A stretch of 64,000 bases of DNA from a virus. Shown here piece by piece: positions 1 through 62,810 of this stretch. A program made the position numbers and the translations under genes. Below the pieces are notes generated by a model, which saw only the letters and a list, made by a program, of their open reading frames with translations, was not told the origin of the DNA and did no database searches. Location of the stretch: the IMG/VR virus record IMGVR_UViG_3300025732_000020, positions 62,001-126,000 of that record; one strand, written 5' to 3'. The first letter of the stretch is position 1; every line of letters begins with the position of its first letter.

Positions 1-1
1 T

Positions 2-3000
2 ACAGCTGGTAACGTTGCAGCTTCGCTATTTGCTGGAAACACCACAACTAACATTACCATAGGTTCTGGACTGACCACAGGAACATTCACCGCGGGAGCA
101 ACTGGTTCAACCGGAGCGGTGTCCCTCTTCCCAGCAACAGGCACTCAGAACATCACGTTTGGTGGAGCGACGACTGGAACGATTACTATTGGTTCTACTT
201 CGGCCACTGCTGTTCAGTTACCAACAGGTAAAACTAAGATTGGTCAAACAACACTAGTACAAGGCGGTGCGGTAAGTATTACTTTGCCAACTTTAGCAGG
301 TACTCTTGCTATTACATCAGAAATTTTATCTAGTTCTACTACATCAACTCAATCAGGATACTTTGGAGATATCTTTTTATATGATGACTCTACTCCATCG
401 CATTATTTACAAGTAACTAATAGTGCAAACCTAACTGCTGCTAGATCATTAAGCATCAACGTTAATGATGCTAATAGAATTGTTTCACTTTCTGGAGATT
501 TAACTGTATCTGCAGCAGCTACCGTATCTGGAACCAACACTGGAGATCAAACTATCACCTTAACTGGCGATGTTACTGGCAGTGGTACTGGTTCCTTTGC
601 TGCTACTATTGGCAATAGCACAGTAACATTTGCTAAAATGCAAAACAGTTTAGCTACTGGATTATCTGTCATTGGCAGAAGTACCAATAGTGCTGGCGTT
701 TTTGCTGAGATATCCGCTGGTTCAGATGGCCATGTTCTACGAAGATCTGGAACTACACTTGCATTTGGAACTTTAACGCTAGAAAACCTTCCTGATGCGT
801 GGGTAAAACGTACAGTTAAAGCTTCAACAACTGCAGATTTAGCAGCAGCAAGTTCTACTACAACAACTTTAACTGGAACTTTAGTAGCATTCCCCGCTCA
901 AGATGGAGTTACTATTTCTGTAGGGGATAGACTATTAGTTAAGAATCAAACTACTGCAGCACAAAATGGTATCTATACACTAACTACTGCTGGTGTTGCT
1001 GGAACTACAGCATGGGTATTGACACGAGCAACTGACGCTGACAATTCTGGCGAGTTAGCTGGAGCTACAGTTTCTGTTGACCAGGGAACTACTCAAGGTG
1101 GATTTATATATGATACTAATTTTAAGACTACAGATACATTAGGAACCACAGCTTGTAATTTTAGTCGTATTCTTGATACTGGAGCTGTATCAGGTGATGC
1201 TACAGTAGCAAATAGTGGTGCATTAACTATTGCTAATAATGCAGTAACTTTTGCTAAGATTCAGAACAGTGCTGCAGCTGGTTTATCTGTCATTGGTAGA
1301 AGTGCTAACTCTGCTGGAGTATTTGCAGAAATAAATGCTGGTACAGATGGTCACGTTTTAAGAAGGTCTGGTACTGCAATAGGTTTTGGAGAGATTGCGA
1401 CTGCAGGTATTGCTAACTCAGCTGTAACATTCGCTAAGATTCAGAACAGTGCTGCAGCTGGTTTATCCGTAATTGGCAGAAGTGCAAATAGTGCGGGAGT
1501 TTTTGCAGAGATTGCTGCAGGTACAGATGGCCATGTACTATATCGTGCATCTAGCACTTCGTTGACATTTGGACAATTACCAACTGCAAGTATTGCTGAT
1601 GATGCAATAACTTATGCCAAAATTCAAAACGTATCTGCAACAGATAGATTACTTGGAAGAAGTACTGCTGGTGCAGGTGTAGTTGAAGAAATTACATGTA
1701 CTGCTGCTGGCAGAGCACTTCTAGATGATGCTGATGCTGCCGCACAAAGAACTACTTTAGGATTAGGAACAATTGCTACACAAGCATCAAATAATGTTTC
1801 TATTACTGGTGGTTCTGTAACTGGTATTACTGATATAACTCTTGCTGATGGTGGAACTAATGCATCACTAACTGCAATTAATGGTGGTGTAGTATGGTCC
1901 AATGCTACACAACTCCAAATTAGTGCTGCAGGTTCTCCTGGACAATTCTTAAAATCCAATGGTGCTGCTGCTCCTGCATGGACAACTCTAGAGATGAGTG
2001 ATATTCCTGGAGCAGTCTACAAAAAGTCAGTAAAAGCTGCTACCACTGCGGATCTAGGGACAGTTACATACGCTAACGGAACTGCTGGAGTTGGTGCAAC
2101 TATTACTGGACCAACTGGTGCTTCTGCAGTTGTATTCCCCACTCAGGATGGAGTTACTATCGCACTAAATGATAGAATTCTTGTTAAAGACCAGACAACA
2201 GCTGCTCAAAATGGTATCTATACACTCACAACAGTTGGTGTTGCTGGTACAACAGCATGGGTACTAACAAGAGCAACAGATGCAGATACTAATACAGAAA
2301 TAGGAGCTGCTGTTGTCGCTGTTGACCAAGGAACAACTAATGGAGGAGAACTTTGGACAACAAACTTCAAACCTATAGATACCGTTGGAACAACGGCAAT
2401 GGCCTGGAACGAAGTTATATATAATAACTTCTCTAGTCCTACTTTCTCTGGTACACTTACAACTGGTTCAACAATAACCGCTGGTAATACTCCTATATCT
2501 ATTTACCCTGGAAATACGACCACCAACATAACTATAGGCTCTGGTCTAACCACGGGTACGTTTACCGTTGGCGCTACTGGTTCTACAGGAGCAGTGTCCC
2601 TCTTCCCAGCAACTGGAGGACAATCAATTACCTTGGGCGGTGCAACTACAGGAACAATTACTATTGGTTCCACCTCTGCAGCGGCAGTCCAATTACCCAC
2701 TGGGAGAACTAAGATTGGCACATCAACCTTAGTTCAAGGATCTGCATTTACATACAGTTTACCGACAGTAACTTCAAGCTCAACTCTCGCAGTATCCAAC
2801 GTTGGTCTAAGTCAATTTGCATCTACAACTTCTGCTGAACTTGCTGGGGTTATTTCCGATGAGACTGGTACTGGTGCTCTAGTATTTGGTACATCACCAG
2901 CATTCACCACAAGTATAACAACTGGATCTACATCATTTGATTTAATCAATACAACAGCCGCTACAGTTAACTTTGCTGGTGGGGCGACTGCCCTAACAAT

Positions 3001-29568: not shown

Positions 29569-32500
29569 GTGTCTAGTCTGTATCGGTGCAAAGCTAGAGT
29601 AGCCTATAAGCCTTTCAATTCTGAGAGGCTTATTGTCTTCGAGGAAAAACAAATCCAAGAGCTAAATGTAAAGCTCAAATGGAATAATTCTTTTTCCTCA
29701 ATGAATTCACAAGGTGCCGATTCGGCAGGCACCTACACATCTGCAATAAGTCAATCAACCTGCCAGGTTACCATCTCCGATCCGTACTTAACCGGGGCGG
29801 CCTGGCCTGCTTTATTTGACGCTGCTTCAATGTGGTCAGCGTCTAATACAGCTCAAACAAATAACATTATTTTACCTCCCTGCGGTAAGGATCAAGATCC
29901 AGTAAGAGATAAGTGTTTTAACTATGGATCGATAGATGATTCAGCACTTGTTAATTCTGACGGGTCCTCCAGAGAACTATCAAGTACCTTTGCACATATC
30001 ATAATTTCGCTATGGTACGAGGTAAATGGCACGTCATTTGGCTCTGATTATTACTTCAGGGTAAATAGAATTAGTATTAATCACGGAGCTAACTTCCCGT
30101 CTGTGACTTTGGCGGGAACTGATCCTAAAAGTGTAGTCTTCAACCAAAACCTTATCAACGTTAAGTTTGATGAGGGGATGTCAGTTGAAGAGGCATTAAA
30201 GAAAATTGCTGAGGAAACCGGATATAAAGCTAGTTTCTGTGTTCCTCCAGGTGGAAAAACAACTGATCCATATATCCTCCCAAGATCATTAATCTACAAA
30301 GGCGTTACTCCTGATGAGGCAATGAAAAAACTCATCGGGGCTACTGGCGGCGCAATGCTCTCCCTCCCCATAAAAGAACACGGGAATACCGTAAGTATTT
30401 GCACTCGTGGAGACCAGGTGGGAAGCTGCACAGTATTTTACCTTGGTAAGGGTCTCTATGAATCGTATCAGATTGACGGAGAGCCCCCTGCCACATTTGC
30501 TCTAAGAAATACTCAGAATGGCGCCAGCATTAACAACGGAGATCCATACGTCTCCGCAAGTTTTGCCGCAGAAAAATACTCCCTAAAGGAAGTAATTAAG
30601 CAAAAAAGAATTAAGGCACTTGAGAAAGTAAAAAAAGTCACTTTCCCAGATCTCTTCAAACCTTGTGAAAAGAGGTGTCAAGGGCCACTTAAGACCGGAT
30701 ATGGATGGACCGGAGCAGGTCCTAATGTAGAAAATAAAAGATACACGGATGTAAACTTTTATGGCATTGCTCCTAATGGTACCCAAGCGATTTCTTATCT
30801 CCCAGGTAAGGTAGAAAGTGCCTCGGAAGAGGAGGGGAAGGTAGTTGTTAAGACTGAGTTTTGGTTACAGATTTGTAAAGATGATAAGTCAGAGAAGTGT
30901 TTCGGTCGGTATGTATACCAAGAGTCTACCAATCTTTCCAAGGTAAAAGTAAAACGAGGTGATGAAGTAAAAGTTTCACAGGAGATCGGTTCATCGGAGA
31001 GTAATAAAAAAGAACTAGTTAGGTTTTATGTACTTGGTCATACTAACGAGTATACCACTCTAGATCCTCAACTTATTTGGAATTGGGCATCTCCTGCTGA
31101 GACTGCCGCGGACTTCCAAAACAAAAATGCTCCCACTGGACCCGGTAATAGCGTAGTAACTCCTGCGCCTAAACAATCCCTCAAAGACTGGAAAGCAACT
31201 ACAACTGCTAAACCTAATAAGGTCTTATTGATGGCTGGCCACGCCGATTTTCCATCAGGTGCGCCTAATGAAAGAGAGTTAAATATAGAACTAGTAAAAT
31301 GGGCGCAACGTAATGCCCAGGCATATGGCATCTCTGATTACATTGAGGTGTATCTACCCTCCTCATCAAATCTACCAGAGAATGATCCACGTTCTCAATT
31401 TAGCAAAACTTCTCAGGCAGCAAGTGCTGGCAAACAGGTAATTGAAATCCACAATGATGCTGCTTCAGGGCATAGTGGGGTAATACCACCAACAGGGGGA
31501 AAAAGAATCTGGCAATTAGACGATGCCCTTGCATCATCATATGGATCCTTTAGTGTCAACCACCGAGATGGATTAGGCGTTCCTAAGAGAGGAGGAACAA
31601 TACTCGAGGTAGGTAGGATGGACGGAGGAACTACGAGAGTATTTACTTCTGGTACTCCTGCTCAAAAGGAGGCATTATATAAGCAACTTATGGATCCCGT
31701 AATGAGATCTATAGCTCAGGAAAAAGCTCGGAATGCTGGAACTGCCACTCCTTCCCCACAACCTACTCAAGGGCCTAATGGATCTGGGGGATTTGATGGA
31801 TTTGTTGGTAAAGTAGGTGATACCGGTAACTCCTATGGATCACACGTTCATGTCGAAGCAGTTCCAAGGAATTCTGTTACAGAAACAGAATTAGATAGTC
31901 TAGTATCCAAATATGTAAAATTTGCTGGTAAGTCTAGGGGAAGAGGATTTAGTGGGCATGGATATCCTGGTATTGATTACCCGGCCCCAGAAGGAACGCC
32001 AATATACATAATTGGCGGAGCGTCCGTTTCCCAGATAGAGAGTACTGGTTGTACTAATGGAGATAAACGTTGTGGCGGTGGATTTGGTAATAGTCTTCTT
32101 ATTAAAACTCCAGAAGGAAAAGTACTTAGATTGGCTCACCTTCAAGGTAAATCGATCCCTCCTAATCTACCCGGTCTAACAAGTTCTGACTCAGGTGGTA
32201 ATACAGAACCAACTATTGCTACTGCCCCGTCAAATAAAGCTTTGACTATTGAGACTTCTTTTAAGGGAGTACCACGTGCCCTGCGAATCACCCCAGGGCG
32301 GACTGTGTTGTCTTTCGTTACTGACTACGACAAATGGCTCGATAATGGAGGGCCGCGTGGCCAAGATCCATCCACAGACCCCGGCGTCTGGATACCTTCA
32401 AGGTTTAGGAACTGGTTTGTAGGGGAAGTGGATTTTGTTTGGAGGCAAGGGGACCTAAGAGTTAACATCGAGGCAAGTAACGCCTGGGGTAATAGTGTCA

Positions 32501-33207
32501 TCTCAGCTCCGACATTCTCAGAATATCTCCAAGGGAAGAAAGGCGCCGGGGAGTTTGAAAAAACTAATGATTACTATGGATACATAAGATCCATTGGCGA
32601 TCTATGTTTCCCGATTAAGAAGGAAGATGGGAAATTGAGCGACTCGTGCAAAGAAAATTGTAGAGAGGCCCAAGAGTTTTACAAGAAGTATGGTTCTGGT
32701 ACTCAAGAGGATACTGGAGCAAACGGTTCCTCTGGGTCGTTCCCCGCTGCAAATTGTAAGACAGGAGATCCAAAAAAGGACGCTATTATAAATGCCCTCT
32801 ATTCTGCAGGTTTAAAAACCCCTAACGCACTTGCTGGGGCACTTGGTAACCTCCAGGCAGAAAGTGGATTTGATCATAATGTTCATAATACTTCCAAGCA
32901 AGGAACTACTTGTGTTACAGTATCTGGAGTACCAGAAAAGTGTTATGGGTTGGTTCAATGGGGAGGTTCCCGTAAAACAGAAATTATTGCCAAATGTGGC
33001 CAAACAAGCACATTACAATGTCAGCTTGAGTTCATGGTACAGGAAGTGAAAAAGAGAGGTGGGGGTGTGGTAGAAGGTATGAATAGTGCTTCGAGTGCAT
33101 CAGCAGCGGCTGAAATATGGAGAACAAAATACGAAGTTGGTAGTGGAGGAATAGCGGAAAGGCAACAATATGCTGAACAGATAGTTAAAACTATTACGTG
33201 CGGATAA
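29569..33207 (+). CDS. Giant tail lysin / baseplate hub with three murein-hydrolase-like domains
   Basis: This 1212-residue protein uses a GTG start with AGGTAAG upstream. Residues ~1-540 look like a tail-hub region (DEGMSVEEALKKIAEETG, as in secretin- or hub-type domains). Residues ~550-715 resemble an Amidase_3 zinc amidase: GH at 557-558, NERELN at 567, EIHND (H628) and LEVG (E680). Residues ~742-860 carry M23 endopeptidase motifs in reversed order: GSHVHVEA (H759, H761) comes before HGYPGID (H797, D803) and LAHL (H857). Residues ~1070-1210 match the phage tail lysozyme type (GALGNLQAESGF with E1098, then YGLVQWGG). The likely role is cutting the peptidoglycan of the host during injection. 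Several Cys residues (CEKRC, CKENC) may form disulphides. Confidence 0.8.
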   Translation: MSSLYRCKARVAYKPFNSERLIVFEEKQIQELNVKLKWNNSFSSMNSQGADSAGTYTSAISQSTCQVTISDPYLTGAAWPALFDAASMWSASNTAQTNNIILPPCGKDQDPVRDKCFNYGSIDDSALVNSDGSSRELSSTFAHIIISLWYEVNGTSFGSDYYFRVNRISINHGANFPSVTLAGTDPKSVVFNQNLINVKFDEGMSVEEALKKIAEETGYKASFCVPPGGKTTDPYILPRSLIYKGVTPDEAMKKLIGATGGAMLSLPIKEHGNTVSICTRGDQVGSCTVFYLGKGLYESYQIDGEPPATFALRNTQNGASINNGDPYVSASFAAEKYSLKEVIKQKRIKALEKVKKVTFPDLFKPCEKRCQGPLKTGYGWTGAGPNVENKRYTDVNFYGIAPNGTQAISYLPGKVESASEEEGKVVVKTEFWLQICKDDKSEKCFGRYVYQESTNLSKVKVKRGDEVKVSQEIGSSESNKKELVRFYVLGHTNEYTTLDPQLIWNWASPAETAADFQNKNAPTGPGNSVVTPAPKQSLKDWKATTTAKPNKVLLMAGHADFPSGAPNERELNIELVKWAQRNAQAYGISDYIEVYLPSSSNLPENDPRSQFSKTSQAASAGKQVIEIHNDAASGHSGVIPPTGGKRIWQLDDALASSYGSFSVNHRDGLGVPKRGGTILEVGRMDGGTTRVFTSGTPAQKEALYKQLMDPVMRSIAQEKARNAGTATPSPQPTQGPNGSGGFDGFVGKVGDTGNSYGSHVHVEAVPRNSVTETELDSLVSKYVKFAGKSRGRGFSGHGYPGIDYPAPEGTPIYIIGGASVSQIESTGCTNGDKRCGGGFGNSLLIKTPEGKVLRLAHLQGKSIPPNLPGLTSSDSGGNTEPTIATAPSNKALTIETSFKGVPRALRITPGRTVLSFVTDYDKWLDNGGPRGQDPSTDPGVWIPSRFRNWFVGEVDFVWRQGDLRVNIEASNAWGNSVISAPTFSEYLQGKKGAGEFEKTNDYYGYIRSIGDLCFPIKKEDGKLSDSCKENCREAQEFYKKYGSGTQEDTGANGSSGSFPAANCKTGDPKKDAIINALYSAGLKTPNALAGALGNLQAESGFDHNVHNTSKQGTTCVTVSGVPEKCYGLVQWGGSRKTEIIAKCGQTSTLQCQLEFMVQEVKKRGGGVVEGMNSASSASAAAEIWRTKYEVGSGGIAERQQYAEQIVKTITCG

Positions 33208-33892: not shown

Positions 33893-34591
33893 TTATCCGT
33901 AGTACTTTGATCCCTTTTCGAGATTAGCCTTAGCACTTAGGGCTTGGAGTCTAGCATTGATGGCATGGTAGTCAAACCAACTCTCAGCAAGAGACGTGTC
34001 TTTAAAATAACACTTAGTCCCACGGCAATACACATCTATCCTTTCAAGATCAACCTTTTCCTCCCTGCACCATTCCTCAACAAGGCTCTTAAATGGGTAA
34101 GAATGGTCAATATGAAACTCCCCGGCATTAATAAATACCCCATGAATAGGGCATCTCATGGGTTTCCTTTTAAGCTGGCGATTTACACTTAGTCTAAATG
34201 TTTTAATTTGTGGCTCGATGATTTGTCTCATAGCCACCAAAACATCCATTTTATTCTGCTTGTACTCAGGAATTGGTTTGACTCTAGGGAAAAGTTCGTC
34301 TGTGACCTTGCCTTTTCCCAGCCAAATTTCCCTCTTCGACCGAGAAGTTACCATGACAACGCCTCTTACAGCTTTGCCTTGGAACTTTTTATTTCGTATT
34401 TTATACTTAACTTCCCCGCGGTCCTTAATTACTTTCCACTTAGGGATTAACTCTATTACACTATCTAAGAAGTCTTTATCGTTGTCTTTTACAAAGTAGT
34501 TGCATTCTGTTCCACTGACAACTTCTGTCCACTTTTTTTCAAAGGCTCCCTTCGTGTATTCATTACCTTTGATGGATATGACGCGTCGCAT
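33893..34591 (-). CDS. DCL (DUF3223)-like / HNH-like protein
   Basis: The N-terminal half (FEKKWTEVVSG...DKDFLDSVIELIPKW...VMVTSRSKREIWLG) resembles the DCL/DUF3223 domain, named for a plant chloroplast RNA-processing protein and found in some phages. The C-terminal half has CPIHGVFINAGEFHIDHSYP followed by DYHAINARLQALSAKAN, which looks like an HNH-type nuclease fold with zinc-binding Cys and His. The match is by memory of motif spacing only. The gene begins inside the sigma-factor gene, overlapping it by 103 bases, and is the last gene of the minus-strand late-type operon. Confidence 0.5.
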   Translation of the reverse strand: MRRVISIKGNEYTKGAFEKKWTEVVSGTECNYFVKDNDKDFLDSVIELIPKWKVIKDRGEVKYKIRNKKFQGKAVRGVVMVTSRSKREIWLGKGKVTDELFPRVKPIPEYKQNKMDVLVAMRQIIEPQIKTFRLSVNRQLKRKPMRCPIHGVFINAGEFHIDHSYPFKSLVEEWCREEKVDLERIDVYCRGTKCYFKDTSLAESWFDYHAINARLQALSAKANLEKGSKYYG

Positions 34592-35274
34592 AGGATAAAC
34601 TCAATAAGTTGTTCTGAATATTTTTTAATATCATCCGCATTTTTAAGATGGGGATTTTTACGGACAATTGTTGATACCGATCTTTTCTTAACAAGGTAAT
34701 CCATGAGAAAAGTCTCGTCAACTGGATCTAAATCAGTAATCTTATGGAGAAGGTCGCGATGGCTCATCATGAAATCCCCCATTGTCATTTCTGACTCATA
34801 CTCTGGCTCAATAATGTTACAGTATTCGGTGACAGGAGAAAAACTCATAGCAAATGCTTGGCGAACTGCTCGGATTTTTTTCACAGGGACCTGGATTTTT
34901 TCTGCAATCTGCTCATCGGAGATGTCTGGATCAGCAATTGTATATTTGCGGATCTTAAGATACAAATCGGAGTAGGAACGCGGGATTTTAACTAGTCGGG
35001 AATTATCTCGTAGGTAATTCAGCATATGAAACTGCAGACACCTATTCACCCAGGTAGAGAAGTTGGCGCCCTTACTCTGGTCCCAAGAATCGTAAATTTT
35101 TACTATATACTCAAGAGCAGCGTCCCTAAGCTCCTCATAGGGCAATCCAGTAAATGAGGAGATTTTTCTGGCAACTTGAGAAGCCTTCCACATCTGTGAT
35201 ATAATTTGCTCATCGCGTTCAGACTGCCTTTTCCGCGACTTGCGTTTTTCCTGCTTTTCGGGTTCTATACTCAT
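34489..35274 (-). CDS. Phage sigma factor (sigma-70 family, regions 2-3)
   Basis: Residues ~45-100 match sigma region 2: GLPYEELRDAALEYIVKIYD, then WDQSKGANFSTWVNRCLQFH, then LNYLRDNSRLVKIPRS. These are the core-binding and -10-melting helices. Residues ~116-140 (DISDEQIAEKIQVPVKKIRA) match region 3. No clear region 4 (-35 binding) follows, although a divergent one cannot be excluded. The 261-residue protein has a very basic N-terminus. It probably redirects host RNA polymerase to phage promoters, as T4 gp55 does. It overlaps the thioredoxin gene by ATGA, so it is translated with the terminase/baseplate operon. The recurring GTTTAAAG motif is a natural candidate for its target. Confidence 0.8.
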   Translation of the reverse strand: MSIEPEKQEKRKSRKRQSERDEQIISQMWKASQVARKISSFTGLPYEELRDAALEYIVKIYDSWDQSKGANFSTWVNRCLQFHMLNYLRDNSRLVKIPRSYSDLYLKIRKYTIADPDISDEQIAEKIQVPVKKIRAVRQAFAMSFSPVTEYCNIIEPEYESEMTMGDFMMSHRDLLHKITDLDPVDETFLMDYLVKKRSVSTIVRKNPHLKNADDIKKYSEQLIEFILCDASYPSKVMNTRREPLKKSGQKLSVEQNATTL

Positions 35275-35588
35275 GAGTTTTCAACTGCTCCGATGATAAA
35301 GTCTTTGAGTTGGGACTTTGCCAAAATTCCGTCAGTGTTAAGTCCTAGGAGGCTTGAGTCCTCTCCAAATACAGCGAAGTTTGGAGTCCCATCACAATCA
35401 ATCTGGTCGCAAAATGCCCAGTCATCAGTGGTAACGTCCCATTCCCCAAATCCAATGGCAAAATGTGGATATTCTTCGGCTAGTTCATTAGCTGTTTCTG
35501 CCCAGACTGGCTTCATTGCGTTACACGCAGCACATCCAGGTTGGTGGAAGAAAACAACTCTATGTTTAAATTGTTGTTGATCAGACAT
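35271..35588 (-). CDS. Thioredoxin-like protein (CAAC active site)
   Basis: This 105-residue protein has a thioredoxin fold pattern: VVFFHQPGCAACNAMKPVW with the active-site CAAC at residues 19-22, then WDVTTDD, and a TPNF cis-proline loop near 68. Thioredoxins reduce protein disulphides. In phages they can serve ribonucleotide reductase or act as DNA polymerase processivity factor (T7 uses a host one). Here the partner is unknown. Its own promoter (TGGTATAAT) lies in the gap after the terminase gene, and its stop overlaps the sigma-factor start by ATGA. Confidence 0.8.
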   Translation of the reverse strand: MSDQQQFKHRVVFFHQPGCAACNAMKPVWAETANELAEEYPHFAIGFGEWDVTTDDWAFCDQIDCDGTPNFAVFGEDSSLLGLNTDGILAKSQLKDFIIGAVENS

Positions 35589-35627: not shown

Positions 35628-37241
35628 TTAGAGGTATCGTGTTGCAGACGATTTAGGGTTGGTATTAGTAACTATTTTTCCAATATCACTAGAGGCACGG
35701 CGGGACCCGCCTCTATAAAACGGATCATGGACCAAGCGAGGAAGTTTCTGCCTATCTCCGCCATGAACTGTCCTTCCACCCATGATCTCATCGCGATAGA
35801 CGGTAATGCCATAGACAAAAGCATCGACAAAGTCATCGTTTTTGATATATGGGAAAGATGTCAACTCAGACATCCTCTCCCCTAGGTTAGGAAGGTTTTC
35901 GTATAGGGAGACTAGATTGTCCTCGACAAGGGGGGCAATAGCATTGGCCCTAAGTACTTTATCCTTATTAGGTACTAATTCTTTAATCGAGATATTTATA
36001 GTCCGCTTAAGTGTTTGGATGAGAGGGACACCTTGTGCTCTACCTTCGATGTATATACATCTAATCTTCCAGGTCTTTACCAACTGTGGGAAAATCTTCT
36101 CAAGATCTGGGAACTCCATTCGCTCAAGAATATAGTGAACTAAATGTAATTTACTTTCTCGTTTATCATATCCCCAAATACAAATGGCCGTAAAGTCATT
36201 CATACGATCGGCCTTATACGCCGTGTCAATGGTGGCATAGATATAAGAATACTTGCCTTTATTCTTACTATGGTACTCAAACCAGTGTTCTTTAAATATG
36301 GCCCCTTGTTCACCCGCCGGCCTTCCTTGATATAGAGAGTTAAAGTCTTTATCACCAATGGATTTTTTAATTGCCTCAAGGTTCTCTACGGGGAAGAACT
36401 CTGGCCAATGAGACTGACCCAACTCTCTCCCCAGTACATCGTTCTCTTCATCGACGCATAGAGCTGGAACATTGAGTTCCCTCCAGCCTTCGGGGTCGGC
36501 TTTCAACAACCTGCCAATAACATCATCGACATGGAACCTCGTGCCCATGGAAATGATGGCGTTGTTAGGAAGACCACGAGTGAGAAACTGTGCCTGTGTC
36601 CAAGCAAATGTGCTCTCCATAACCGTCAATGAGTTACCATCCGCCAGAAGGTCATCAAGAATTCCAACTCCAGGCAACTCATCATCACTAATCACTCCGA
36701 AGCCAAAGCCGGTAACACTGCCGCCCGCCGAGGCAATTTTAATCAATCCGCCATTGCCATTACGGATGGCACTAAGATTACACTTATCTTTATCAATCTC
36801 ACACTCGGGGAACAACCATTTAAAACTCTCATGAGAGACATACTCAATAACAGCTCTGGAGTTCTCATTAGTGAGTTGAAGAGCATATGAACTCATGATA
36901 AATTGAGCGGTAGGACTACGACCCATTTGCCAAGATGGGAATACCTTGGAGATGAGTAGAGACTTCCCAGTACGAGGAGGAAGGGAAATTGCACTTTGCT
37001 TATATTCCTTTTCTCCGTCACCGATCCTCTGCAGGAAGTTACCAATCACCTCATGGACTTTAAAGGGTTGGAACTTACCAGCAATAGGCACTTCAGATGT
37101 AATAAATCTGGCATATGTTAAAAAATCTGTTCGGCATTTTAGCCTGAGGAGTTCTTGCTTATCCGACGGAGAAAGAGAAGCAAGATTAGCCTCCATTTCT
37201 TTAACTAATTTTTTTTCTAATTTTACCTGAGATTTATTCAT
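35628..37241 (-). CDS. terL: Terminase large subunit
   Basis: From the ATG at 37241 the ATPase domain shows Walker A SLPPRTGKS (86-94), Walker B GVGILDDLLAD (191-201) and coupling motif SMGTRFHVDD (231-240). The C-terminal RNase H-like nuclease has ATIDTAY (D339), IYIEGRAQG (E399) and NDDFVDAF (D470, D473). It packages DNA into the prohead and cuts it. The motif style is of the Terminase_6 type rather than obvious T4 gp17. I chose the ATG because it overlaps the HNH gene stop as ATGA; a TTG five codons upstream is less likely. The adjacent HNH gene separates it from the baseplate genes of the same operon. Confidence 0.92.
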   Translation of the reverse strand: MNKSQVKLEKKLVKEMEANLASLSPSDKQELLRLKCRTDFLTYARFITSEVPIAGKFQPFKVHEVIGNFLQRIGDGEKEYKQSAISLPPRTGKSLLISKVFPSWQMGRSPTAQFIMSSYALQLTNENSRAVIEYVSHESFKWLFPECEIDKDKCNLSAIRNGNGGLIKIASAGGSVTGFGFGVISDDELPGVGILDDLLADGNSLTVMESTFAWTQAQFLTRGLPNNAIISMGTRFHVDDVIGRLLKADPEGWRELNVPALCVDEENDVLGRELGQSHWPEFFPVENLEAIKKSIGDKDFNSLYQGRPAGEQGAIFKEHWFEYHSKNKGKYSYIYATIDTAYKADRMNDFTAICIWGYDKRESKLHLVHYILERMEFPDLEKIFPQLVKTWKIRCIYIEGRAQGVPLIQTLKRTINISIKELVPNKDKVLRANAIAPLVEDNLVSLYENLPNLGERMSELTSFPYIKNDDFVDAFVYGITVYRDEIMGGRTVHGGDRQKLPRLVHDPFYRGGSRRASSDIGKIVTNTNPKSSATRYL

Positions 37242-38080
37242 TCTGATATTCTCCAACCTTTATGTTGTTTTAATTTCCCACTATTTACTCTAGATAAATG
37301 GGCTTTGTTTAGTTTTAAATTTGGATATAAATTACTCAATTCCGTTATTTTTGCTTCAACTATTCCGTACTCTTCATGATACCATTTTATCTTTTTTTCT
37401 TTAAAATCTATTCTCCTCCATCCTCTATGCTGATTTCTTTTTCCATTATGTACAGCCCTAAGATATGAATCATCTAAGTTCATATCTTTGTATATTTTTT
37501 TCATTTCAAATATACTTCCTTTATATACTCCGTGTATGTCATGGACAAATATGTATTCTGTTCGTTTTAAATGAGTTTTATTACTTACCTTCCTAGAAGT
37601 TTCTAGGTCTTTACACCATCCCTTATGATGAGTCCTTCTACCAGAAGAAACTAAATATAATAATGAGAAAGTTAATTCTGGATGTTTTTTACAAAGTTCT
37701 TCTATTGAACCCGTAAATTTACCATATTTATTGTGATAAAATGTTCTTATAGTTTTTCTTTTACTTTTTAAATGTTCTATATATTTATTTCTAATTTTTT
37801 CATAGTCTTTGGATCTTTTTATATTTAGTCTATTCGATAAGAAGAAAAAAGCTATCAAAGATTTTGTTGTTCTAGGATGCAAATTTCCGTGTCTTTTACT
37901 AAAATATTTATATAATAATTTATGACATAAGAAATGTTCCCTAGTAGTTAAAGAAACTATAAAATTATTTTTTACTATACTTTTTGGTATAATATGATGT
38001 TTTTCGCAAAAATTATTGGGACATTTATTTCTAGATAATGCCTTTCTTATAATATTAAAGTAAGTCTTTCTATAATTCAT
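37238..38080 (-). CDS. HNH homing endonuclease with three NUMOD-like repeats
   Basis: The N-terminal HNH core is CEKHHIIPKS (residues 25-34), followed by TTREHFLCHKLL. Three DNA-binding repeats follow, each with an 'E..k..P/N.' helix and ending in GKR..H(K/R)GWR: HHKGW near 153, QHRGW near 227 and QHKGW near 275. The gene is far richer in A and T than its neighbours and sits between the baseplate hub and terminase genes. These points fit a mobile, free-standing homing endonuclease, which would cut phage genomes lacking it next to terL. The start is only 6 bases after a GTTTAAAG motif, so it appears inserted between that motif and terL. Confidence 0.8.
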   Translation of the reverse strand: MNYRKTYFNIIRKALSRNKCPNNFCEKHHIIPKSIVKNNFIVSLTTREHFLCHKLLYKYFSKRHGNLHPRTTKSLIAFFFLSNRLNIKRSKDYEKIRNKYIEHLKSKRKTIRTFYHNKYGKFTGSIEELCKKHPELTFSLLYLVSSGRRTHHKGWCKDLETSRKVSNKTHLKRTEYIFVHDIHGVYKGSIFEMKKIYKDMNLDDSYLRAVHNGKRNQHRGWRRIDFKEKKIKWYHEEYGIVEAKITELSNLYPNLKLNKAHLSRVNSGKLKQHKGWRISE

Positions 38081-38125: not shown

Positions 38126-41074
38126 TCAACAATCTGCCCTGCCTTCTTGACTTCTGCCTTGTTCATAATTGATTTGGTCTAGGATAGATGAGATTGTTTG
38201 TTGGGAAGACGGAGACAGGCCAGAATTGGGAAGATCAGAATATCTAGATGATAGTGAGTTACCCAAGAGCGAGTCAGGTTCTGGTGGTACTGGGGAATTT
38301 ATCTTAGATTCCAAAGAATCCTTAAGCACTTTATTCTTATCTCGCTTTGTTTTACACTTACCGAATGTAGGCGGAAGTTTTTTAGGTATTAGTCCTAAGA
38401 CAAAGTCAGCAAGATCAACTAGATCTTTTGCTGGCTCTAGCTCTTTCCATTCACCGTGAGCAGTCTTTAAAAAGTTATTAGTTATAAATAAAGCTTCTTT
38501 TTTAGATGCAGAGTTTAATTTAGCAATTTTTGTTATATTTTTAAATACGTTAGTAAGACTGTCTGTTGGAACAACTCCAACCTTGCCCCCTTTCTTTCTA
38601 TGGTCAAGTCGCCTTACATAATTATAAGTATCTTTAATAGCTTTGGACGTCTCAATGATACTCAAAAGAGTCTGGGAGAAGAACGATGTGTTACCTACCA
38701 TTAACTTGTTAATAAGTCGGTACTGAGCATCTATAAGTTTTCTTTCAATAGACTCTACCTTAGTTATATTATTATCAGTCTGCTTAAATCCTTTCTCAAT
38801 CGCTTCAAAAGTATAGGTTAATTCAGACCATAACTCCGGCCAATCAGCATGTTTCGCTCCTTCAATCCTATCAGCCATCTCTGAGAGTCTTTTAACCCCA
38901 GTGATAAGTTGAGTTAAATCCCATTGGTTCCCTCCAGAGTTGCATAAATCTTCGCCTATTTTGGTGGGTATTAGGTCTAAAATATCAGATAGTGGATTAT
39001 TGTTGTTATTAGTAAGATCTCCTTTAGGAGCATATGAACTATGATTAGTTGATACAACGCTTCCACAAGGGTCTAGTAATTTATTACCATCTGAGTCCTC
39101 GCCATGTTTTGTTTTTCTACACTTAGGATCACATGGACACTCTGCTCCTTGACCTCCAAATAATCCCCCTAAACCAGGTATACCTCCCAAGACAGACGCC
39201 ACTGGGTTAATGCCCGTCAGAGCAGAAAAAGCACTCAGTCCAATACCAGCTGGTCCTAAGAACGACGTGAATTGCCCTCCTAACCCAACTAACTGAAGTG
39301 CAGACGTAGCCAACTGAGGCACACCTTGCAATCCGCCAAGATTAGGAATACCGGAAAGATTTGCAAAATTAGATGCTAATTGAGCAATTTCACCAAAATC
39401 CCCATTAGAAAGTTTGCCAATAATGTCCCCAGAAACAAGATTAGAAATCCCGTCAATCCCTCCCATCGTAGAAATGATTTGATTAACCGAGTCCGGTAGG
39501 GATTGATCTAAGGCACCTACAGCACTTCCAATGATATTTTTTATTGAGAGTGGTTGGCCATCAAGGATATCTTTTCCAATGTCCCATACTGGAGAGACAA
39601 ATTGTGCTACTTCGGGAGGAAGTTGAGACATTCCGTACATTGTTGCAGCATCTATAGCACCCAATGCCCCTCCGGCCATATAAGCTGAGTACACCCCAGC
39701 TACCTGAGAAGGCAGGTCATTAAATGCTTGGTTGAAAGAAGTCTTACCAATTACCTGCAGAGCACTATCTAGAGAGTTATTTTTAATCCCTTGAGCGAGT
39801 ATATCGCCCGCCCCGCCTGCTGCACGAAGGATCTTCTCTAGTTCACTATCAATCTCTCCACCTTTGCTGATTGCTGAAATTATCTTAGAAGTTACCGCCT
39901 CAATGGATTGATTAGAATTACTGGCAATAACAATCTTCCCAAGATCCCCAAGCATATTAACCCCATTAAACTCTTTTGGTAGAGCTTTTGCGGCTATCAT
40001 TGCTTTTTTAAGTGCTGGATCAGATGCCACTGGGGCAACTTGACTTCCTGCTTCTTTTAAAACTTTTTCTTTTGCATTACCAACTATATTCTGAGAAGAA
40101 GGTGATGCATTTTGCTTAAGAGCCTCTATTGGTTTTTTAGATGCTAAAAAATCTTTTCTCTTTGGCGGTGGGTCTTTAGGATAAAATTGAATTGGTTTTC
40201 TTGATCCAGAACTCACCCACTTCATCTGCTTTTGATATCTCACGCAGATGGCAAGTTCAGAATCCAATCCCGTATCAACAACCACTTCCATCCCATGGTT
40301 CTTTTCAGTGCAGTCTGGAAGTGTAGTACGAAATACAACCGGAGGAGATGATAGTGGCGCCCATGAAAAGTCTCCGTTTTCATCCCTTCGACAGGTTAAC
40401 ATTGTCGATCTAAATTTTCTATCCTCAGTAAATTCCCTCACATCGCCCTCTAGTGCCTTGGAGCATTTTGGCATTCCAGATTGTTTAGAGAGGTTAGTAG
40501 TTACAGGCGATTCTACGACTCCAGGGTCAAAACCTTTCTCTACGATCTTTCCATTGGTAATAGATTTCCAAGAGTAGATGGGGTCTCCGCCTTCTTGGGT
40601 ATTGTTACGGCGAAGGCAAATAACTACATCTTGACTTACCTCATTCTCGAGTAGATAGATCCGCCCGGCGTTATCCTCATTGCACTTCATCCCTGGATCA
40701 GAAGAGGCATTACCTGCCTCCATCTGCTCACCGAGTATCGTGAGTTGGATCGGGGTACCTACCCCAGTACCACGTGGATCTTTGTTAAAAATCTGACTAA
40801 CAAAAGCATCATTGGTATTTCCACCCGCCTTAGAAATAAGACAAGGGGCCCCAATATATTGTGAACTTAATTGACCTTTATGGCTTCCTTGGACGTACAT
40901 CCAATCTGAAGTCATACCTGCATAGAGTGCCTTTACTCTCCCTAACCGCTTAGGGTCGGAAACAGAAACAATAGTCCCTATTTCATTAAAGGGATCACCG
41001 AAAGGCCCTCCTATAGCTTCTAAACTACGCGTAGCGAGTTCTTTAAGTCCTTGAAATTCGTCAAAAAATCCCAT
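38126..41074 (-). CDS. Baseplate hub-like protein with OB-fold domain
   Basis: Residues ~30-105 carry an OB-fold of the gp5/VgrG hub type: GTIVSVSDPKRLGRVKALY, then SDWMYVQGS, then GAPCLISKAGGNTNDAFVSQ. The middle (~350-690) is Gly/Ala/Leu-rich and hydrophobic (LGGLQGVPQLATSALQLVGL), with a Cys cluster afterwards (CPCDPKC). The C-terminal part is helical (TDNNITKVESIERKLIDAQY). No lysozyme domain is visible, consistent with a separate tail lysin in this phage. At 982 residues it is longer than most hubs. It lies three bases downstream of the gpI-like gene in the baseplate operon. Confidence 0.75.
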   Translation of the reverse strand: MGFFDEFQGLKELATRSLEAIGGPFGDPFNEIGTIVSVSDPKRLGRVKALYAGMTSDWMYVQGSHKGQLSSQYIGAPCLISKAGGNTNDAFVSQIFNKDPRGTGVGTPIQLTILGEQMEAGNASSDPGMKCNEDNAGRIYLLENEVSQDVVICLRRNNTQEGGDPIYSWKSITNGKIVEKGFDPGVVESPVTTNLSKQSGMPKCSKALEGDVREFTEDRKFRSTMLTCRRDENGDFSWAPLSSPPVVFRTTLPDCTEKNHGMEVVVDTGLDSELAICVRYQKQMKWVSSGSRKPIQFYPKDPPPKRKDFLASKKPIEALKQNASPSSQNIVGNAKEKVLKEAGSQVAPVASDPALKKAMIAAKALPKEFNGVNMLGDLGKIVIASNSNQSIEAVTSKIISAISKGGEIDSELEKILRAAGGAGDILAQGIKNNSLDSALQVIGKTSFNQAFNDLPSQVAGVYSAYMAGGALGAIDAATMYGMSQLPPEVAQFVSPVWDIGKDILDGQPLSIKNIIGSAVGALDQSLPDSVNQIISTMGGIDGISNLVSGDIIGKLSNGDFGEIAQLASNFANLSGIPNLGGLQGVPQLATSALQLVGLGGQFTSFLGPAGIGLSAFSALTGINPVASVLGGIPGLGGLFGGQGAECPCDPKCRKTKHGEDSDGNKLLDPCGSVVSTNHSSYAPKGDLTNNNNNPLSDILDLIPTKIGEDLCNSGGNQWDLTQLITGVKRLSEMADRIEGAKHADWPELWSELTYTFEAIEKGFKQTDNNITKVESIERKLIDAQYRLINKLMVGNTSFFSQTLLSIIETSKAIKDTYNYVRRLDHRKKGGKVGVVPTDSLTNVFKNITKIAKLNSASKKEALFITNNFLKTAHGEWKELEPAKDLVDLADFVLGLIPKKLPPTFGKCKTKRDKNKVLKDSLESKINSPVPPEPDSLLGNSLSSRYSDLPNSGLSPSSQQTISSILDQINYEQGRSQEGRADC

Positions 41075-61032: not shown

Positions 61033-61599
61033 ATGGACTTTTACTTCTCGTTTGGCAAAAAGAGACCTTCGGAAAAATCGACGGTTATCTCCGCTGCATT
61101 TATCTGGGGTATTTTAGAAGTAATTATTGACCCTCTACTTGATTTTATTAATCGTAGAGTATTGAATAAAATAAAAGGAGAGGAATTAAAACGGGTATTT
61201 GACGAGTTGGATATTTTCTGGCTTAGAAATGGTTTGAATAAAGACTACTCTGAGTCTGAAGTAAGACTAATCATCTCTATGTTTTTAAGAGCTATAAAAG
61301 ACGACCATCTGTCCCGTAAGGAACTCTTAACTCTTGTTGACTTTGTTCAGAGAAAGTGGTCGTCCTCTGAGGCATTACAAAAAACATTTACCCAGGTCGA
61401 TGAAGTTATAGAAGCTAGAGTAGAAGCAACTGTAGACCAAGCCATAGAACTCTATGAAAAGAAATATATGGAAAAGCCACAAACCCCAGAGGAATTTGTG
61501 GTCAGTACTGCCGAGATTATCTTTCATGAGCCAGATGGTAGCACGGCTCAAGAGTTACTCGGTGGGATGATAGAAATTAAGAGTAGAATTATTTACTAA
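61033..61599 (+). CDS. Hypothetical protein with one hydrophobic segment (188 aa)
   Basis: The N-terminus is MDFYFSFGKKRPSEKSTVIS and a hydrophobic stretch (VISAAFIWGILEVIIDPLLDF) spans residues ~18-38, possibly a membrane helix, though it contains charged residues. The rest is helical and charged (KELLTLVDFVQRKW, VDEVIEARVEATVDQAIELY). No family is recognised. It converges with the methyltransferase gene with a four-base overlap. It is only 10 bases from the strong terminator before it. Confidence 0.55.
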   Translation: MDFYFSFGKKRPSEKSTVISAAFIWGILEVIIDPLLDFINRRVLNKIKGEELKRVFDELDIFWLRNGLNKDYSESEVRLIISMFLRAIKDDHLSRKELLTLVDFVQRKWSSSEALQKTFTQVDEVIEARVEATVDQAIELYEKKYMEKPQTPEEFVVSTAEIIFHEPDGSTAQELLGGMIEIKSRIIY

Positions 61600-62810
61600 A
61601 TAACCCAGAGGGACTTCATCGGATCTTTAGAGGCAGTATTATTCTGCCTTAAGATTTTGTATGTGCCATCTCCTTGGGTCTCAGGATCGATCCATTCTCT
61701 GTTACCATCTAGAGCTTCAGCAATCTCTCTAATCCAGTCTGCAGCAGTACATGCCGGAACATTCTGGCAAATCACATTACTATGCTTAGTTGGAATTTGT
61801 ACCTTTTTGGCATAATCATCAGGGAAACCCATGAGGGCTAGACCCTCAGAAACGGTTAACCATCTGTCCTCATGGGGATGCATCAGATGAGGAAGAGTTT
61901 TCCACATAAGCGATTGTGTTCTATACCATGCAAGTTTCATACTTCCGTCCATGATATTCTTTCCGGCTCTTTTTTTCTCCAAGGTGTAGTTGAGCCAGCG
62001 ACTTGCTCTCTCATCCTTGACTACTCTAGCGGCTTCTTCTAACCACCCTGAGTCATAGATTACGTTCCATACGGACGTCATTCTCTTAGAGGCAACATGA
62101 GCTAGAATGTCCTGCTTTGTAGACCCGGTAAACTTAGACTCAATAAACTGCCAGAGGGGGTCTGCACTAGGAAGATTTTTATTATTTGACACCGACTCCG
62201 TAGGAGCGAAATGTCCCTCTCCTAGGAATTTATGGAAAGGCAGGAAGTCTTTTTTAACTGGCGCAAGGACCGGGACCTTGTTACCCTTCCACAAGAAAAA
62301 GAAACTTCTTGTCCGTTCTTGTGGCACGCCATGATTAATCGAGGTGGTCTTTACCAAACTCATTGTATAGCCATTTGCCTGGGCGAGGGAGTTAATTCTT
62401 TCTGCAAACTCCTCTCCCATCTTGGAGTAGAGAGTTGGGGCGTTCTCGACCATAATTGCCTTAGGAGCAATTTTCTGCATAGCAAACTCAGCAGCATTGT
62501 ACATATGCATGTTACTAGGAGCAGAACATCCACGTGGGTTGTTTGCTTTATCCCCAGAGGTGGTGTTGGCCATTGAGAGCCCAGCGCATGGAGGAAGTGA
62601 CGTTACAATATCTACATAGTCAGTAGGATAGTTCTTCTCATCGAAATCGTAAAATGGCACCTTATCCATGTACTTGAGACAGTACTGATCATTCGCACCA
62701 AATACACTCCCCCAAGATGCAATCCACTTCGGATCTGACTGAAGGGCAATCGAAGTTCCTACAACACTTCCCCCTACGAGAGGGATGATATGACCATGAG
62801 TATACGTCAT
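61596..62810 (-). CDS. DNA cytosine-5 methyltransferase
   Basis: The 404-residue protein has the m5C methyltransferase motifs in order: a variant motif I (PLVGGSVVGTSIAL), the catalytic motif IV with C75 (SLPPCAGLS), motif VI VENAP (121-125), motif VIII QERTRSFFF (164-172) and motif X-like QNVPACTAADW (about 349-359), with LMGFPDDY before it. It methylates cytosine at C5 in a specific sequence. In phages this protects DNA from host or rival restriction enzymes. The target sequence is not predictable. No partner restriction enzyme is seen. It is transcribed divergently from the last two genes. Confidence 0.85.
   Translation of the reverse strand: MTYTHGHIIPLVGGSVVGTSIALQSDPKWIASWGSVFGANDQYCLKYMDKVPFYDFDEKNYPTDYVDIVTSLPPCAGLSMANTTSGDKANNPRGCSAPSNMHMYNAAEFAMQKIAPKAIMVENAPTLYSKMGEEFAERINSLAQANGYTMSLVKTTSINHGVPQERTRSFFFLWKGNKVPVLAPVKKDFLPFHKFLGEGHFAPTESVSNNKNLPSADPLWQFIESKFTGSTKQDILAHVASKRMTSVWNVIYDSGWLEEAARVVKDERASRWLNYTLEKKRAGKNIMDGSMKLAWYRTQSLMWKTLPHLMHPHEDRWLTVSEGLALMGFPDDYAKKVQIPTKHSNVICQNVPACTAADWIREIAEALDGNREWIDPETQGDGTYKILRQNNTASKDPMKSLWVI

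Follow-up and report, generated by a model that had tools for sequence, protein, structure and literature searches.

The gene at 29569..33207 (+ strand) of the 64,000-nucleotide stretch of viral DNA analysed here (the window, part of a 135-kb virus record) raises the question of how several cell-wall hydrolases can be accommodated in a single structural protein of a phage tail. Its open frame has a GTG start and codes for a 1212-aa protein, described below as a multi-enzyme baseplate hub. A preliminary description had proposed that three different murein-hydrolase-like domains lie behind a hub region in this one chain. Our analysis agrees with that proposal, the lysozyme and M23 domains being recognised by Pfam and the amidase by its fold and residues. 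The reportable result is however a different one, namely that the M23 domain bearing the catalytic residues is, on the basis of sequence and models, a circularly permuted predicted enzyme with a spread well outside this gene.

The hub gene and its virus

The window virus is an uncultured, contractile-tailed, S-TIM5-like relative. Genes around the locus are ordered PhoH, structural gene, hypothetical, structural gene, hub gene, two hypotheticals, SigF, hypothetical and TerL, and Tail_P2_I and Baseplate_J genes are found near the hub gene. The window virus is syntenic with Aurunvirus S-TIM5: both S-TIM5 and S-TIM54, isolates of Aurunvirus, have the same gene order, and their hub orthologue (AEZ65701 and UYE97289, respectively) is annotated as 'virion structural protein'. 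These orthologues have the hub, an inactive M23, a permuted M23 and a lysozyme in common with the window protein but are about 30% identical to it, lack its amidase and have their enzyme content unannotated in the records. Synechococcus is the host of the S-TIM relatives.

The hub protein recurs identically in other IMG/VR contigs (L001 and L004), and about 40 distinct near-full-length relatives were found. Since the same protein is repeated in other contigs and the domain order is kept in the isolates, an assembly or frame artefact was ruled out.

Several other genes of the window, all on the minus strand, are recorded here as separate observations. A 280-aa ORF at 37238-38080, flanked by TerL and the following structural gene, shows HNH/NUMOD-looking repeats by eye and is a candidate homing endonuclease; S-TIM5 has no gene at that spot. 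An HNH-like HIDHSYPFK motif was likewise noticed by eye in a 232-aa ORF (33893-34591), the counterpart position of which is occupied in S-TIM5 by a hypothetical gene. The start of the 982-aa protein of 38126-41074 resembles by eye a gpV/gp5 OB-fold spike, and a Pfam and PHROG search with this protein gave no match. SigF is adjoined by a 105-aa thioredoxin-like protein (35271-35588) with a GCAAC motif, also seen by eye, and a C-5 cytosine DNA methylase (Pfam 73 bits) is encoded at 61596-62810.

Architecture of the hub protein

The full protein was modelled with AlphaFold from 37 sequences, which gave a mean pLDDT of 69 and a pTM of 0.34, the amidase, M23-type and lysozyme parts being confident and the hub of modest confidence. 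VIA-align comparison of model 1..963 (window 13..975) returned the A-1(L) hub (PDB 8kea) as best match with a Z of 14.8; further matches were the Pa193 hub (9b45, Z 13.1), VgrG1 (4mtk, Z 12.7), Mu gp44 (1wru, Z 11.5) and T4 gp27 (1k28, Z 10.2), and many hubs of the gp27/gp44/gpD/VgrG fold matched this stretch at Z 10-15. In alignments to single-chain hubs, which extend over model 1..about 963, the enzyme block is skipped. As hubs match over model 1..963 and an amidase_3 match falls within it, the enzyme block is placed as an insertion in the hub fold, with the lysozyme after it. The product of ORF 29569-33207 is, on a model of modest confidence, a baseplate hub of the gp27/gp44/VgrG fold. This fold is split by an inactive M23-like domain, an optional amidase_3-like domain and a circularly permuted M23 domain, and a lysozyme of the phi29 type comes after it. 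Hub part 1 (residues 1-370; 29569..30678, +) was delimited by structural alignment to known hubs at a modest local pLDDT, and hub part 2 (residues 885-1005; 32221..32583, +) supplies the remainder of the hub fold beyond the inserted enzymes.

A hub with many enzymes is thus of a known kind, given the precedent of A-1(L) gp15, the solved trimeric hub of an Anabaena myophage, for which the published account reports lysozyme, endoglucanase and peptidase as extra domains and activity of two of them on Anabaena cells (PMC10966104). The preliminary description had stated that one or two such domains are the norm for tail lysins, which may hold as a general rule, but the three extra domains of gp15 already depart from it. 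Both proteins are hubs that carry hydrolase-type domains, and they differ in enzyme set and insertion points; the A-1(L) peptidase domain has no detectable sequence kinship to the window M23, and the consulted passages of that account make no mention of a permutation (PMC10966104).

The amidase_3-like domain is an optional insertion at residues 540-728 (31186..31752, +), identified by fold match and motif residues. Its fold was matched by AmiP (7b3n, Z 14.1, rmsd 2.9 over 152 aa, model residues 538-710) and by two other amidase_3 structures, 7agm (Z 13.5) and Rv3717 (4m6g, Z 13.4). H558, E568, H628 and E680 are invariant in all 13 amidase-bearing members, the first three being putative metal ligands and E680 the putative catalytic residue, with roles assigned by motif. 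Comparison of the domain with Pfam and PDB sequences did not recover the amidase_3 identity: the window protein has no match to PF01520 and, among the 13 members, two reach an E of 0.05 at best. No Pfam gathering-score match being available, the domain was therefore named 'amidase_3-like'. Its nearest annotated relative is the C-terminus of gp94 from the Microcystis phage Ma-LMM01 (28% identity). In that phage the amidase stands on a gp5-like OB protein, whereas the M23 is canonical and carried on a separate, adjoining gene, gp95.

The C-terminal tail lysozyme (residues 1060-1212; 32746..33204, +; PF18013, 5e-22) matched Phage_lysozyme2 (PF18013) over residues 1072-1207 at 78.9 bits, the cut-off being 28.2. 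It is homologous to phi29 gp13 (3csq), with E values of 3e-16 to 4e-17 (3csr, 4e-17), and E45 of gp13, which we take to be its catalytic Glu, aligns to E1098, the candidate catalytic Glu of the window protein. Lysozyme and M23 are also combined in one tail protein in phi29 gp13, but this is a podovirus tail knob with neither hub nor amidase, and its M23 is presumably canonical and C-terminal.

The preliminary description did not include a degenerate M23-like copy, a putative pseudo-enzyme in canonical order at residues 372-512 (30682..31104, +; pLDDT about 85). It was matched by PF01551 with 19.6 bits over residues about 388-500, in the normal order of the profile (10-76), and by canonical M23 in hhalign (93.1%, E 3e-7). 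The HxxxD and HxH residues of M23 are missing from this copy in the aligned members, and a PDB sequence search with its profile gave nothing meaningful. M23-fold rows are present in the Foldseek list of the full model; they probably stem from the inactive copy, because the isolated permuted domain yields none. The copy is probably a scaffold or wall-binding part.

Among the profiles that had been suggested for the three enzymes, Phage_lysozyme2 and Peptidase_M23 (37.0 bits, in partial stretches) were recovered and Amidase_3 was not. A profile match was lacking for one of the three domains rather than two, and catalytic residues were missing from none. The expectation that three different bonds of peptidoglycan would be targeted is backed by sequence, fold and conserved catalytic residues, as predicted activities.

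The permuted M23 domain

The second M23 region, at residues 741-868 (31789..32172, +), is a natural circular permutation of M23 as judged from its motif order, a swap test and an AlphaFold (AF2) model. The C-terminal M23 half comes first, with strand 6, strand 7 and the HxH motif (H759 and H761; 31795..31863, +), and was located by the Pfam profile (about 65-88) and PDB alignments. The N-terminal half comes second, with H797-x5-D803 and the AHL His H857 (31930..32172, +; Pfam profile 4-54), and is backed by hhalign (98.7%, E 2e-16). The 37.0-bit match of PF01551 to the whole protein (cut-off 28.7) consists of three partial stretches, and the permuted domain alone scored 30.8-30.9 bits against the same cut-off as separate stretches, seen by Pfam as two stretches in reversed profile order. 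Residue-level alignments to five solved M23 structures were also matched in reverse order. HxH lies ahead of HxxxD...AHL in 37 of the 37 aligned relatives having the region, and all permuted members depart from the M23 order of Hx3D, then HxH, described for the InterPro extent (PMC9662197); hence the domain is termed a circularly permuted derivative of M23 and not a canonical member. Canonical M23/LytM domains (LytM 4zyb, ShyA and 3slu) share both halves and the catalytic residues with the window protein, in which the order of the halves is reversed.

Exchange of the halves in silico restored a single Pfam stretch covering 2-90 of the 96 profile positions, and in none of the four cases tried did the score fall. 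In the swap test, the best single-domain score after such an exchange was measured against a profile of 22 canonical M23 domains. The score went up in 43/43 permuted sequences, from a mean of 27.8 to 53.2 bits (+25.4), and coverage from 35 to 92 of 111 profile positions; the window domain rose from 22.5 to 45.7 bits. All 22 canonical controls became worse, with a mean loss of 60 bits relative to native scores that are inflated, since the same controls built the profile. The AF2 model of the isolated domain (pLDDT 92.6, pTM 0.88) is one confident domain, with seven core strands in the order 6-7-1-2-3-4-5 when the numbering follows the motif order of LytM. The isolated domain was also submitted to a PDB fold search and to VIA-align, both order-dependent; M23 was not among the matches, which consisted of weak RRM-like rows with Z no higher than 4.3. 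These rows were judged to be chance, a verdict confined to them and not extended to other families. The absence of M23 from a sequential fold search is expected because of the permutation and constitutes no independent proof of the M23 fold.

The residues of the M23 active site are strongly conserved: H759 in 43/43 members, H761 in 42/43 (one Asp), D803 in 43/43 and H857 in 42/42. The first zinc His is at its normal place in 37 members and is Tyr in six, the window phage included. A His is found two residues early in 6/6 of the latter (H797 with Y799 in the window protein), and this coupling occurs in hub and tape-measure contexts alike. The coupling argues that H797 takes over from the usual zinc ligand. 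The M23 zinc ligands and catalytic His are kept in the window protein, with the first His shifted by two. As a separate observation, HLD stands for HLH in the permuted M23 of L025 5346-5789 and L027 7311-7754, and this second motif type is also found in the Acinetobacter, Moraxella, S-EIVl and P60 versions.

The HxH and HxxxD/AHL pieces could in principle be decayed remnants of two half-domains, produced when M23 copies recombined, in an M23 that is enzymatically dead. The degenerate copy just upstream and the Tyr at the canonical zinc His of the window phage would suit such an origin, but we consider it very improbable: both halves and the catalytic residues are retained in 42-43 of 43 diverse members, every Tyr member has the early His, the identical order recurs in unrelated proteins and the model forms one confident domain. 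It could also be argued that the permuted domain is a folded binder of metal or peptidoglycan that serves in wall binding or regulation, with the cutting left to lysozyme and amidase, as degenerate M23 (LytM) domains are known to act as regulators (PMC9662197) and some permuted members have HxD for HxH. This proposal, though less improbable than the former, is unlikely, given that the full catalytic set is conserved in the permuted domain whereas the neighbouring inactive copy lacks it in the aligned members. We therefore favour a catalytically competent permuted M23 as the prediction.

Spread, module exchange and proposed role

Beyond the hub family, carriers of the permuted order include tape-measure proteins (Acinetobacter phages and prophages), a tail protein of a Moraxella phage, the TMP_3-type proteins L117 and L154, a gene of Synechococcus phage S-EIVl annotated as 'peptidase M23 family', stand-alone genes of 228-239 aa and a T7-like internal virion protein. 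A P2-type gpD hub (L103 3-1301; Phage_GPD 50 bits) has a permuted M23 at its C-terminus, and P60 gp33 shows the permuted order with weak scores and was also recovered by fold. The collection was scanned with a subset of the permuted-domain alignment, all 37 sequences being too diverse. A split-profile test counted 121 permuted versus 90 canonical ORFs, redundancy included, and bacterial M23 proteins in the same scans were mostly canonical. A BFVD search with the permuted domain returned only four proteins at E <0.01, including those of S-TIM5 and P60 and a tape-measure protein. The candidates from Thermus P74-26 (TMP), S-SRP01, CHP58, Sf-CH1a and a fecal phage have the canonical M23 order and were rejected.

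In a review of M23 domains the motif order is given as Hx3D followed by HxH, and no permutation is mentioned (PMC9662197). Nothing relevant on a permuted M23/LytM domain was found in the open-access papers searched, a result that does not by itself establish novelty. We think it likely that naturally permuted M23 (LytM) catalytic domains form a class of their own among the peptidoglycan hydrolases carried by virions, one that is widespread but has so far gone unrecognised. Its members would occur in hubs of myoviruses and of the P2 type, in tape-measure proteins and T7-like internal virion proteins, and as stand-alone genes of phages, and fold searches that depend on sequence order would miss them.

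Within the hub family, enzyme modules swap by recombination among near-identical hubs. Pairs with hubs 99% identical have permuted M23 domains of 51% identity (L008/L013), lysozymes of 42% (L053/L024), or an amidase of 68%, a lysozyme of 32% and a permuted M23 of 61% (L025/L029). These three pairs mark recombination hot spots inside one gene. The amidase is absent from most hub relatives, S-TIM isolates on Synechococcus included, and a tree built from hub residues only implies at least five gains or losses of it.

The preliminary description had tentatively attributed the third enzyme to the thick peptidoglycan of cyanobacteria, which would make the protein an ordinary multi-domain tail lysin. 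A Synechococcus host for the S-TIM5 relatives and the three extra domains of the A-1(L) hub lend this some appeal, but the scattered distribution of the amidase speaks against it, as does the presence of the permuted M23 in Acinetobacter and Moraxella phages, and we regard the attribution as highly unlikely.

The best explanation, and a very likely one, is that the hub carries a folded hydrolase block with a permuted M23, plus a lysozyme, and that these enzymes would open the wall after contraction. The hub would form a trimer around the spike and be driven through the outer membrane by sheath contraction, upon which the three enzymes would make a local opening in the wall: the lysozyme would cut glycan strands, the amidase the MurNAc-L-Ala bond and the M23 domain the stem-peptide cross-links. 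The permuted M23 most likely originated by duplication or fusion, then trimming, of an ordinary M23 domain, and its new ends would allow it to be housed within a structural protein. The hub would be retained while recombination exchanges the enzyme modules.

M23 domains are among the best-studied wall hydrolases, and a natural permutation in which the active-site residues are preserved would make a useful example for the study of protein evolution. If the assignment is true, lysin engineering would gain a domain with new ends that is insertable into loops, and the annotation of many phage structural proteins would be corrected. The interchange of modules on near-identical hubs would offer a direct test of whether wall chemistry shapes the entry step.
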